From Chloroflexota bacterium (GTDB lineage: Bacteria > Chloroflexota > UBA11872): a stretch of DNA of 64,000 nucleotides. The DNA is taken from positions 41,862-105,861 of the forward strand of contig JAJEDE010000019.1 of the NCBI GenBank assembly GCA_022821645.1. Reading direction: 5' to 3'. The notes under the pieces are model-generated. The model was given only the letters and a program-made list of their open reading frames with translations. It was not told where the DNA came from and made no database searches. Shown here one piece after another: positions 28,358-33,987 of the stretch. How positions within the stretch are numbered: position 1 is the first letter of the stretch; the number at the start of each line of letters is the position of its first letter. The position numbers and the translations under genes were made by a program.

Positions 28358-30277
28358 ATGAGCGAACCCAACAACCCGTCGTGGCCGAACGGGCACGGAA
28401 AACTGCCGGTCAACCTGCCCGTCCACGAGCCCGGCGACATTCCGCTTCCCGCCGATTTCGGTCTGGACGCGTTCATCGACGCAATCGCGGCCGTCGAGGA
28501 GGACGCTTCGCGGATCAATCCCCTCACCGCCGCTGAACGTGTTCGCTCGGCGCTTCAGATCTGGATCCTCGGCTTCGAGACGAACGCCGCCGCGATCCGC
28601 CAGCGACAAGACGTCGTTCGGACCTTCTGGGACCGTCCCGCCCTCGGTGACCTTGTCCAGCACCTCGACATTGCGCCCTACGACGCCAATCAGGAATCGC
28701 GCGGCGGTTACCAGTACAACCTCGAACGTTTTGAGTCCTACGCCGCGGCGCTCACCAGCCTGCGCGCCGCGCTCGATGGCGCACTCCCGCAATGGCTCGT
28801 CGGCGTGCGCGGCGCCCTTGACGACGCCGCGGCCGAAGCGTCCGGCACGACGCGCAAGCTCAACCCCCGGCTGGCCCTTGAAGTCAGCCTTTCTGGACGT
28901 GTACACATCTCAAAGCGGGAAAGCCTGATGGGCGGAAGCACCCAGCAGGGTCAGCTCAACTACACCTACGCGCTGGTCAACGAATCAACGGGCGAATCCT
29001 TGGAGCGCGTTACGCCCGGTGGCTTCGGCGTCGGTGACGTGCTTAACCCTTGGGATCCGGCGCCCCAGCGTCGATCGGCGTTCGAATACCAGATGGACAG
29101 CGAGATCTTTCGCCTGCTAACTCGAGTAGTGAAAGAGTCGATTTTCACCCGTGCCTACCACCTGTCAGGCGTGATCGGCGTTGACGAAGCCGCTGGCGTC
29201 GCCAAGAGCACGGTCTATTTTCGTCGCACATCGCGTGAGCCGCTGCTCAAAGTCATCGCCAACAACACCCTCGGGTTCATACCGGGGGCGCCGAGACTCG
29301 GCTATGCGTGGGAGAGCCTCAAGCCGTCGGTCGGGGAAGGAACGCTCTACGTCGAAATCTCCGCCGAGCCCACCGGCGCCATGCAGGACGAGAACACCCT
29401 GTTCCGCATCCTGGAAAAGGTCCGCTCCGATCACAACCTCTTCTACCTCCGCCAGTTCCCGCCCGCCATCCGCCGATTCGAGCGGCTGCTGGTCACCCTC
29501 AAGGCCGTTGCCGCCGCCGTGCGCTTCTTTCGCGGCCTCCAGGCGCGCGGAATGCCAATTGCCTTTCCAATGGTCGTCGATCCAGCCCCTGATGCGCCGA
29601 CCTACCTTCAAGGCCTCGTCCCGCCCGAACTCGCCGTCCTGCCCGGACTTGTCTGCGTTCCCAGCGATGTGAACTTCATCCCGCGACAACCCACCGTCCT
29701 CATCACCGGCGCCAACAACAACGGCAAAACCACCTACCTGGACTCCATCGGCATCTCGCAGGCGCTCTTCCAGGCTGGCCTCCCCGTCCTCGCGTCCGAG
29801 GCCGCCCTCGAACCGCGCGACAAGATCCTCTCCCACTTCATCCGCCCCGGCGATGTCCAGGCCGGCGAGTCCACATTCGCGCACGAATGCTCGCGCGCGG
29901 TCCGTTTTGTCGAGCAGCTCACCGCCCGCAGCCTGGCTCTCTGCGATGAGCTTTTCCGCGGTACCTCGCCCCAGGATGGATTGGTAGTGTCCGAACTGGC
30001 CCTGCGCTGCTTCATGCGCTCCGGCGCCGCCGTCTTCTTTGTCACCCACTACCACGGCCTGGTTCAACGACTCAACGGCGAGGACAGGTTGCGCTTCCTG
30101 GCTTGCAAGCTCGACCACTCCGTCGAACCCGCGCGCTACACGTACCGCATGCAACCCGGCGTCTCCACCGAGTCCGACGGCCTCCTCGTCGCCGCTCAGC
30201 ACGGCTTTAGCGCCGAGAGCCTCGACCGGATTCTGGCCTTCAAGGCCTCAAGGGGCGAGATTCCCGAATCGGACTGA
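28358..30277 (+). CDS. Stand-alone MutS-like ATPase
   Basis: The 639-residue product ends in a MutS-type ABC ATPase domain. Walker A is TGANNNGKTT (about residue 450), a signature-like region is GDVQAGESTF (about 505), Walker B is LALCDELFRGTSPQDG and the switch His is in FFVTHYHGL. Upstream is a lever/clamp-like helical region; the N-terminal mismatch-recognition domain with the Phe-x-Glu motif of MutS1 is absent. The N-terminal 340 residues do not resemble a nuclease (no Smr domain). It therefore belongs to the non-canonical MutS-like proteins, whose DNA role should not be assumed to be mismatch repair. It is convergent with the MFS gene. Confidence 0.75.
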   Translation: MSEPNNPSWPNGHGKLPVNLPVHEPGDIPLPADFGLDAFIDAIAAVEEDASRINPLTAAERVRSALQIWILGFETNAAAIRQRQDVVRTFWDRPALGDLVQHLDIAPYDANQESRGGYQYNLERFESYAAALTSLRAALDGALPQWLVGVRGALDDAAAEASGTTRKLNPRLALEVSLSGRVHISKRESLMGGSTQQGQLNYTYALVNESTGESLERVTPGGFGVGDVLNPWDPAPQRRSAFEYQMDSEIFRLLTRVVKESIFTRAYHLSGVIGVDEAAGVAKSTVYFRRTSREPLLKVIANNTLGFIPGAPRLGYAWESLKPSVGEGTLYVEISAEPTGAMQDENTLFRILEKVRSDHNLFYLRQFPPAIRRFERLLVTLKAVAAAVRFFRGLQARGMPIAFPMVVDPAPDAPTYLQGLVPPELAVLPGLVCVPSDVNFIPRQPTVLITGANNNGKTTYLDSIGISQALFQAGLPVLASEAALEPRDKILSHFIRPGDVQAGESTFAHECSRAVRFVEQLTARSLALCDELFRGTSPQDGLVVSELALRCFMRSGAAVFFVTHYHGLVQRLNGEDRLRFLACKLDHSVEPARYTYRMQPGVSTESDGLLVAAQHGFSAESLDRILAFKASRGEIPESD

Positions 30278-30290
30278 CGCCTCGCCCTGA

Positions 30291-31508
30291 TCAGGCCCGA
30301 CGCAGCTTCGGCGCCAGGGCCAGCACCGCCAGGCTCGTCGCCATCACCACCAACCCGGCCCCGCCTATCGCCCAGCGCACGCCAAAGGCCTCGCCAACCG
30401 CGCCCATCGCCAGGTGGCCCACCCAGCCGAAGCCGATGGCAAACAGCCAGCCTCCCACCACGCGCCCGCGCATCTGGTCCGGAACCGTCGCCTGCAGCAA
30501 CGTCAACTGAATGGCGTCGAACGCCGCGGCCATGGCGCCCACCAACGTCACCAGCATGATGGCCACCGCCAGGCTGGGGCTAAGTGCCACGCCCACCAGT
30601 CCCAGCCCGTACACCATGGTCACGCTGAGCAGCAGGCGGCCCTTGCGCCGGAAGTCGCCCAGTAGCGACAGCGCCACCGCCCCGATCACGGCTCCCATGC
30701 CGGCGGCGAACTGCAATGTCCCAAGTCCCGACTCCGTGACCTGCAGCTCGCCCCGCGCCATCGCCGGCATCACGGATTGATAGGCGAATCCAAAGATCTC
30801 AACCGCAATCGCCATCAGCAGCAGCGTGGCCACCACCGGGAGCCCTGCCATCAGCCTGATGCCGTCGGCGGTGTCTTGGAGGACCATGCGCAGCGGCGTC
30901 TGCTGGTCACCGGTTGCCGGCTGCACACGTGGAATCAGCAGCACGACCGCGCCTCCGATCAGCACCAGCACGGCCGCCGCCGTCAGCGCCGCGGGAATGC
31001 CCAGCAGTTCCGCCGTGATACCGCTGGCCAGCGCGCCGATGGCCCCCACGGCCAGGCTGCCCACCGCGTGCAGCGAAATGGCATTCATTCGCATCTCGCG
31101 CGGCACTAGGTCGGTAATCAGCCCTTGTCGGCCAGGCATATCGAACGAATTGACCACCCCGCCAAGCGCGATCAGCACAAAGATCGGCCAGGGATTGGAA
31201 AACCCTGCCCAGGCGATCAGCGCCAGCAGCACCTTCAGCACGGCTCGTATCAGGGCCGTGATCGGCAGCAACCGCGTTCTCGGATACCGGTCGGCCACGG
31301 CGCCTCCCAGTGGCGCGGCAAGAATCCCCGGCGCGCTGCGCACGGCGAAGGTCGCCGCCGACAGCAAAACCGACTCCGTCTCAACCAGCACCAGCCAGCC
31401 CACCGCCAGCCGCTCGGCCCACGTGCCCAGCGCCGTGAAGGTCGAACTCAGCCACAGCACGCGGTACGTCGGATAGGCAAAGGCCGTCAGCCCGCGCGGC
31501 ATTCTCAA
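30291..31508 (-). CDS. MFS transporter
   Basis: The 405-residue protein has twelve predicted membrane segments. The loop 2-3 motif reads GGAVADRYPRTRLLPITALIR, the MFS motif A, and its C-half counterpart is LGDFRRKGRLLLSVTM. The layout matches the group that includes enterobactin and macrolide exporters, so drug or metabolite efflux is likely. Its gene converges on the MutS-like gene with 13 nt between stops, and it diverges from a MOSC-type gene. Confidence 0.85.
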   Translation of the reverse strand: MRMPRGLTAFAYPTYRVLWLSSTFTALGTWAERLAVGWLVLVETESVLLSAATFAVRSAPGILAAPLGGAVADRYPRTRLLPITALIRAVLKVLLALIAWAGFSNPWPIFVLIALGGVVNSFDMPGRQGLITDLVPREMRMNAISLHAVGSLAVGAIGALASGITAELLGIPAALTAAAVLVLIGGAVVLLIPRVQPATGDQQTPLRMVLQDTADGIRLMAGLPVVATLLLMAIAVEIFGFAYQSVMPAMARGELQVTESGLGTLQFAAGMGAVIGAVALSLLGDFRRKGRLLLSVTMVYGLGLVGVALSPSLAVAIMLVTLVGAMAAAFDAIQLTLLQATVPDQMRGRVVGGWLFAIGFGWVGHLAMGAVGEAFGVRWAIGGAGLVVMATSLAVLALAPKLRRA

Positions 31509-32247: not shown

Positions 32248-33987
32248 TCAGGCGTTCCCCTCCACCTGCACCGTGACGATATCCACGCCGTGAAACTTCT
32301 TGTGGCGCACGGCACTCGCGCGGTAGCGCAAGAGGCGTAGCGAAAGTTCTTCCGCCGACGGCAGGGCGGCATCATCGGTCAGAAACGCCAACTGGTCCTC
32401 GATGTTCTCATGCCGGGTTGTCGCCACGAACTCCAACTCAACCATCGTGTCCTGCGGCCGCGCCACAACGACCAGTCTCGGTCGTTCGGTCCCCGCATGA
32501 GACTCCTCCTGCGACAGCAGCACCGCCAGCGTCTCTTCCCCGGCCGACCGCAGCCGCAGCGTTGAGGATTCGTTCCAGCCCAGCCTCGACGCCAGCCCGG
32601 CCAGGAAGTCGTCGATCGCCGCGAGCGAGGCCATGTCCAGCGTCACGTCCAGCCGTGAGCGCCGCGTGCTTGTCGCTTCCAGCAGCAACGTCATCCCAAT
32701 CGCTACCAGGGCGCCAATCGTCACGCCGCTACCCAGCAGCCCGCCGAGCTCCTCGCCAAAGAGATCGCGCGTCACTGGGTGACCGTGCAGCCCCAGGCCT
32801 AGCGCGCTCGCCAGCGCCACCACTAGCACGCGCTTCGGATCCAGGCCGTCGCGCATTATCGTCTGGCAGCCGCTGACCAAGAGGATGCCCATCGCCAGCA
32901 TCAGGTAGGCGCCCAACACGGGTCCGGGGACCGTCAGGAGGACGGCGGCAAACTTGGAAAAAAACGCCAGCGCCGCGATTACGATCGCCACGCCAACGCC
33001 GACTCGTCGGGCCGCGACCCCGGTCAGATTGATCAGCGACAGGCTGTATGAGGAATTGGACATCGGCGGCAGCGTGCCGGCGATTCCCGCGAGCAGCATC
33101 CCAAGGCCGTTGACGCTGACCATGCCCTGGATCTGGCGGAAATCGATAGCCCGCGGCTGTCGGCGGGAGCCCTGCTGAATCACCACACCGTCGCTGATCG
33201 TCTTGATCCCGAGCACCAGGGTCAGAATCGCGAACGACGGCAGGAGCGCCCAGAACTCCGGGCCCGGCGTGAGATCGAAGCCCAAGTCCGGCACCGCGGG
33301 AATTCCAAACCAGTTGGCGCTGGCGATTCGCTCCCCATCCAGCACGCCGAATCCAGCGGCAACGGCGCACCCGACCAGGATGCTGATGAACGGCGCGACC
33401 AGGCGCCAGCGTCCGCTGGCCCGCATGGTCACGATCGCTGAGACCAGCAGTGTCACACCGGCGATAGCCGGACCCGCCACCGGTGGGGTGCCGGCAGGAA
33501 GGTCCCGGACGCTATCGAACGCGATGGGCAGCACGCTGACGGCAATCAGCATCGTCACCGTGCCGGAGACAGCCGGCGTAATGATTCGCCGCAGCGTCGG
33601 CAGCCACCACGCCAGCCCAACCTGGACCAGGCTGCATACCACCATCAGGCTCGCGAACATCGCGGGCCCGCCCGCGGAGACCGCCGCCACCATGATCGCG
33701 ATGAACATCGCCGCGGGCCACGTAAGCACCAGGTGGCCGGCGCCGAAGCGGCCCCGCTGAATCGCTTGCAGCGCGGTAATGGCGGCACAAATCAGCATCG
33801 CGGCAAATACGCCCCAGGTGAGATAGCGGTCGTCCAGTCCCGCGGCTCGAATCGCGATCGCCACCGTCAGCACGATCGGCGCGAGCCCCAGGGCGGCGCC
33901 CTGGAACCCGACCGCCAGCGCGATCAATGGAGGACAGGCCTCCTCGGGCTCGTATTGGATCGGCTGTTCCGAGGTCCCGGCAGTCAA
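32248..33987 (-). CDS. NCS2 xanthine/uracil-type permease fused to ATPase-like C-terminal domain
   Basis: The first 430 residues of the 579-residue product are a polytopic transporter of the NCS2/UraA type. The conserved block MVSVNGLGMLLAGIAGTLPP is followed by MSNSSYSLSLINLTGV, and about 12-14 membrane segments are present. The last 145 residues are soluble (DMASLAAIDDFLAGLASRLG, SAGEETLAVLL, then VELEFVATTRHENIEDQL) and resemble an RsbW-like histidine-kinase-type ATPase fold. The acidic EE within GEETLAVLL sits where the N-box acidic residue would be, but G-box glycines are hard to find. A purine/pyrimidine or related anion substrate is expected. The tail may be regulatory (inference). Confidence 0.75.
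   Translation of the reverse strand: MTAGTSEQPIQYEPEEACPPLIALAVGFQGAALGLAPIVLTVAIAIRAAGLDDRYLTWGVFAAMLICAAITALQAIQRGRFGAGHLVLTWPAAMFIAIMVAAVSAGGPAMFASLMVVCSLVQVGLAWWLPTLRRIITPAVSGTVTMLIAVSVLPIAFDSVRDLPAGTPPVAGPAIAGVTLLVSAIVTMRASGRWRLVAPFISILVGCAVAAGFGVLDGERIASANWFGIPAVPDLGFDLTPGPEFWALLPSFAILTLVLGIKTISDGVVIQQGSRRQPRAIDFRQIQGMVSVNGLGMLLAGIAGTLPPMSNSSYSLSLINLTGVAARRVGVGVAIVIAALAFFSKFAAVLLTVPGPVLGAYLMLAMGILLVSGCQTIMRDGLDPKRVLVVALASALGLGLHGHPVTRDLFGEELGGLLGSGVTIGALVAIGMTLLLEATSTRRSRLDVTLDMASLAAIDDFLAGLASRLGWNESSTLRLRSAGEETLAVLLSQEESHAGTERPRLVVVARPQDTMVELEFVATTRHENIEDQLAFLTDDAALPSAEELSLRLLRYRASAVRHKKFHGVDIVTVQVEGNA

Follow-up and report, generated by a model that had tools for sequence, protein, structure and literature searches.

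Why should a bacterial NCS2 permease end in a domain that resembles an anti-sigma kinase? In the 64,000 nt stretch of Chloroflexota DNA analyzed here (the window), an open reading frame at 32248..33987 encodes a 579 aa NCS2 permease with an RsbW-like domain at its C terminus. The gene lies on the minus strand, running from a TTG start codon at 33987 to 32248 with the stop codon included, and the plus-strand translation of 32248-33987 is broken by internal stops. The start position is common to the orthologues, which begin at the matching position with TTG, GTG or ATG. The first-pass annotation of this DNA, which named no strand, had described a permease with an additional soluble domain, and this observation was confirmed: the reading frame is real, and the tail recurs in other genomes and is under purifying selection, as described below.

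The permease part, residues 1-440 (32668..33987, minus strand), consists of 14 transmembrane (TM) helices and belongs by sequence and by fold to the NCS2/SLC23 family, whose members import DNA/RNA bases. Residues 26-401 match the Pfam model PF00860 (Xan_ur_permease) with E=8.6e-30 and 104.1 bits against a cut-off of 27, which is the sole Pfam match in the 579 aa protein; the nearest NCBIfam model is a xanthine permease and scored below its cut-off. Modelled in full length by AlphaFold2 (pLDDT 77), the protein adopts the membrane fold of NCS2, and its best PDB matches by Foldseek are UapA (E=5.9e-17), UraA (E=1.6e-15) and SVCT1. The final membrane helix of the model spans residues 421-439, and the ~140 residues beyond it form a separate soluble domain. 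As computed from the match coordinates, ~178 residues follow the PF00860 match in this protein versus 18-76 (mostly 40-62) in NCS2 proteins from this phylum that lack the tail.

The tail, residues 441-579 (32251..32667, minus strand), has the RsbW/SpoIIAB fold. An AlphaFold2 model of the tail built from 63 homologues (pLDDT 75, pTM 0.71) shows the element order b-a-a-b-b-a-a-b-b, which is the SpoIIAB topology; this model of the isolated tail is only moderately confident, with the lid region 101-109 falling below a pLDDT of 50. A Foldseek search of the PDB returned 19 matches at E<=0.001, all of them to SpoIIAB, RsbW or UsfX, with a best E of 1.6e-8, a probability of 1.00 and a TM by target of 0.66-0.85; histidine kinases ranked after them at 1e-3 or worse. 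The tail is also distantly homologous to this family. Aligned by hhalign with six genuine RsbW-like proteins, the tails matched at 96% and E=4.6e-9 over 80 columns, and HATPase_c_2 (PF13581) gave a weak match in 10 of the 63 homologues, the best of which (E=5.2e-5) was under the curated cut-off. Searches with the tail sequence alone found no match in Pfam, in NCBIfam or, by phmmer, in the PDB; a profile of alignment A1 gave chance matches only against PDB sequences, and a plasmid tblastn search had no match. A STAS identity, as for the C-terminal domain of SLC26/SulP-type transporters, was rejected on structure, since the matches are to RsbW/SpoIIAB and no STAS structure appears among the 50 best in the PDB. 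The RsbW-type fold proposed in the first-pass annotation is thus supported by structure prediction, profile-profile comparison and the weak HATPase_c_2 matches, and neither of the outcomes that it had set against this reading, disorder or a STAS fold, was observed, the tail not being disordered overall.

The ATP site of the tail has lost its motifs. Genuine RsbW-like proteins carry an intact N-box, E-x-x-x-N, followed by a D-x-G region and then GGLG (six-protein alignment). In the degenerate N-box of the tail (residues 484-493; 32509..32538, minus strand), the Glu is retained, E484 and E485 being invariant in 77 homologues, but the Asn position, 489, is occupied by S in 35, T in 27, I in 9, V in 5 and others in the remainder, and by N in 0/77. 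Neither DxGxG nor GxGL was seen in the tail sequences inspected, which instead read 'ENIEDQLAYL...EISFRLLRHYASSVRHQKYHG' across the stretches of the RsbW DxGxG and GGLG motifs. The more distant copies inspected from Acidimicrobiia show the same loss of ATP motifs. In its fold and its invariant N-box Glu, the tail resembles an active RsbW-type ATPase or serine kinase, and the first-pass annotation had used the terms 'ATPase' and 'switch-kinase'. We consider such an activity very improbable and reject the identity because the ATP-binding motifs are lost: the N-box Asn, the D-x-G Asp and GGLG are retained by genuine RsbW-like proteins, and the tails lack the signature of a functional anti-sigma kinase (N-box Asn, DxGxG and GxGL). 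Judged from these motifs, the tail is a degenerate GHKL domain and probably non-catalytic.

The former nucleotide region nevertheless contains residues that are invariant across the same 77 homologues. These are N528 and D531 in an N-x-x-D motif (32395..32406, minus strand), which corresponds to the ATP-lid/DxGxG region of RsbW, and S549, L553, V560, H562 and D569 in the last helix and hairpin (residues 549-569; 32281..32343, minus strand), which take the place of the RsbW GGLG region. Their invariance indicates that the region is not decaying and has been re-used. The residues E484/E485, N528, D531, H562 and D569 go beyond structural needs and could serve ligand binding or another type of enzyme.

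The substrate site of the permease part is remodelled as well. In UapA, the side chains of Glu356 in TM8 and Gln408 in TM10 bind xanthine (PMC4162363). Aligned to UapA, the window protein has K262 (33202..33204, minus strand) at the position of Glu356. Among the 77 tailed proteins this TM8 column is K in 54, Q in 12 and E in 11, whereas E is found in 23 of the 26 tail-less Chloroflexota NCS2 proteins. The TM10 stretch (residues 309-323; 33019..33063, minus strand) has lost the canonical [Q/E/P]-N signature in the alignments; the signature is gone from 77/77 tailed proteins, its Asn being present in 0/77 versus 24/26 tail-less proteins. The tailed proteins thus have an NCS2 fold without the canonical nucleobase site, defined by the TM8 Glu and the TM10 [Q/E/P]-N-x-G. 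With both features lost, they probably take a substrate other than an ordinary nucleobase, and a Lys at the TM8 position would suit an anionic one. It would be unsafe to name the substrate as xanthine or uracil. A large set of proteins is headed for annotation as xanthine/uracil permeases despite their differing substrate-site residues.

To the question of whether other NCS2 proteins carry this tail, which the first-pass annotation had raised, the answer is that dozens do. The genome that contains the window encodes exactly five PF00860 proteins, and all five have the tail. Searching with the tail alone, we found it in 29 of 41 close relatives, most of them with 3-6 copies per genome, and with strong E-values in 31 of 400 genomes of the phylum; the other 20 of the 51 matches in the phylum were weak, and those inspected were genuine RsbW-like genes. 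Within the class to which an Acidimicrobiia MAG belongs, 12 of 247 genomes likewise have the tail. No tail was found separate from an NCS2 frame save at contig ends or frame breaks. Apparent frame-broken copies of tailed permeases comprise a tandem second copy at L010 3159-5692 and one in genome G015 (L173 2121-3281). An apparent tail-less orthologue in genome G001 was rejected, as the end of a contig cuts the gene and a matching tail fragment starts another contig. Genome G019 encodes a tail-less NCS2 protein, which we take from its sequence to belong to the AzgA-like subfamily.

The phylogeny of the two parts points to a single acquisition. In a tree of the permease parts, the tailed proteins form a single clade against the tail-less Chloroflexota NCS2 proteins (SH-aLRT 100, one change). 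Five paralogue groups are each represented by one member in the genome of the window, and the groups reappear in a tree of the tails, where the label changes are at their minimum number. Patristic distances of permease and tail are correlated (r=0.89). From the single clade and the agreement of the two trees, the most likely history is one gain of the tail, ahead of the duplications, followed by co-evolution with the permease. In 14 close pairs, dN/dS was 0.04-0.29 (median ~0.15) for the tail and 0.03-0.13 (median ~0.09) for the permease. The tail is under purifying selection and is not a chance extension. Copies of the fusion in Acidimicrobiia (Actinomycetota) lie at L012 6001-7737, L014 6001-7728 and L175-L217; the copy of the window type there is ~78% identical and has no common neighbours, which suggests transfer of the fusion between phyla.

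The genes around the tailed permeases name no partner. The window gene is close to a convergent MOSC gene and to genes for an MFS transporter, a GH32/43-like protein and a PhyH dioxygenase. This neighbourhood is conserved only in the closest relatives and is absent around homologues of 71-79% identity elsewhere, and the other four loci of the genome have unrelated neighbours. A scan of the gene neighbourhoods for a conserved partner, either purine-catabolism or anti-sigma genes, found none; in particular, the neighbouring anti-sigma partners that the first-pass annotation proposed to look for did not appear, no anti-sigma or STAS gene adjoining a tailed permease at any of the five loci. Some features of these loci were seen in passing. 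The MFS gene (window 30294-31508) is 98% identical in L007 versus 71% in L006 and L008 although the adjoining NCS2 gene is uniformly 92-93% identical in the three, so a local replacement of the MFS gene is possible. A ParD-like/PIN pair (L053 8122-8939), likely a toxin-antitoxin system, lies directly upstream of another tailed permease. The 639 aa protein encoded at window 28358-30274 has a MutS domain V ATPase as its sole Pfam match.

Retention throughout the paralogues in spite of differing neighbourhoods, together with the degenerate active site, would fit a tail that is purely structural, stabilizing or targeting the permease with no regulatory input. We consider this quite unlikely, as the invariant polar residues in the former lid/nucleotide region exceed the usual needs of a scaffold. 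A regulatory alternative is that the protein is a transceptor, whose tail would bind STAS-type antagonists (RsbV-like) or a sigma factor according to the transport state of the permease, so that the availability of substrate is linked to the partner-switching pathway of the cell. RsbW and SpoIIAB, whose PDB structures the tail matches, do bind STAS proteins and sigma factors, and transporter-kinase fusions such as CbrA and CrbS exist (PMC7096432; PMC13022988). The genome also has an intact-looking partner-switching set in a cluster on contig 10 (L136 2721-9609), comprising an RsbW-like protein, a receiver-SpoIIE phosphatase (RsbU-like), a receiver-STAS protein and two single STAS proteins, with a histidine kinase and a periplasmic binding protein beside it. 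However, this module is near none of the five tailed permeases, and the loss of the ATP motifs makes classical phosphorylation-driven switching unlikely. We hold the transceptor to be possible but rather doubtful.

The explanation that we favor, by a modest measure of confidence, is an NCS2 permease whose once-gained, RsbW-derived tail without ATP motifs is a non-catalytic cytoplasmic module for regulation or assembly. On this reading an NCS2/SLC23-fold transporter gained, once, a C-terminal domain from the RsbW/SpoIIAB (HATPase_c_2) family of anti-sigma kinases, and the tail then lost its ATP-binding motifs and became non-catalytic. The NCS2 topology would place it on the cytoplasmic side. 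SpoIIAB/RsbW domains dimerize, and the tails most likely pair across a permease homodimer, dock a cytoplasmic partner, or both. By analogy with the STAS tail of SLC26 transporters, such pairing or docking would tune transport or stability. Of these elements, the computations show the fold and distant homology of the tail, the missing ATP motifs, a single origin, retention in all five paralogues, purifying selection and the altered substrate site of the permease, whereas the cytoplasmic location, the pairing, the binding of a partner and the regulation are inferred. More speculatively, and in our estimate improbable, the proteins could constitute a new class of transceptor, in which a remodelled, possibly anion-binding NCS2 site is joined to a SpoIIAB-fold pseudo-kinase tail that binds STAS/sigma-type partners, or else engages a new ligand by way of the E-E/N-x-x-D/H/D set, and reports the transport state to gene regulation. 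Such a class, if real, would mirror the way in which SLC26 and STAS are arranged.

In the open-access literature, searched for HATPase or anti-sigma domains fused to NCS2 proteins or other permeases and for transceptors of this kind, we found no description of an NCS2-RsbW fusion, and the fusion is seemingly undescribed, although the architecture may already have been annotated automatically. Its hosts are uncultured Chloroflexota and some Acidimicrobiia. The membrane part shares fold and family with UraA, UapA, XanQ and the other NCS2/SLC23 permeases (PF00860), to which the window protein adds the RsbW-like C-terminal domain. The tail has the topology of RsbW/SpoIIAB/UsfX (PF13581) and a distant sequence similarity to them, but it is fused to a transporter, lacks the N-box Asn, DxGxG and GxGL and remains below the curated PF13581 cut-off. 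The known transporter-kinase fusions are SLC5-based, CbrA and CrbS joining an SLC5 transporter to sensor-kinase (GHKL-type) domains (PMC7096432, PMC5715377, PMC13022988). A transporter with a GHKL-type domain is common to these and the window protein; they combine SLC5, a STAC linker and a sensor kinase, whereas the window protein is an NCS2 permease with no HisKA and a degenerate ATP site, and, with PF00860 as its sole Pfam match, it does not show the SLC5 plus STAC, HisKA and HATPase_c composition of SLC5-type histidine kinase transceptors.

The closest architectural parallel is SLC26-STAS. SLC26 transporters have the 7+7 TM fold of SLC23, their STAS tail comes from the anti-sigma-antagonist family, and deletion of this C-terminal domain affects transport; SLC23 transporters form dimers and are described as lacking a C-terminal domain (PMC6497670). 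The window protein and SLC26/SulP transporters thus belong to one 7+7 TM inverted-repeat class, and both end in a cytoplasmic domain drawn from the set of anti-sigma regulators (PMC6497670), but the permease here is NCS2 and its tail has the kinase-side fold (RsbW), whereas the tail of SLC26 is of the STAS (RsbV) side. SpoIIAB/RsbW, the fold that partners STAS, is found here on a transporter of SLC26-like architecture, stripped of its ATP site and retained in several ancient paralogues, and the fusion offers a second, independent case for testing the role of C-terminal domains in the SLC23/SLC26 transporter superfamily.
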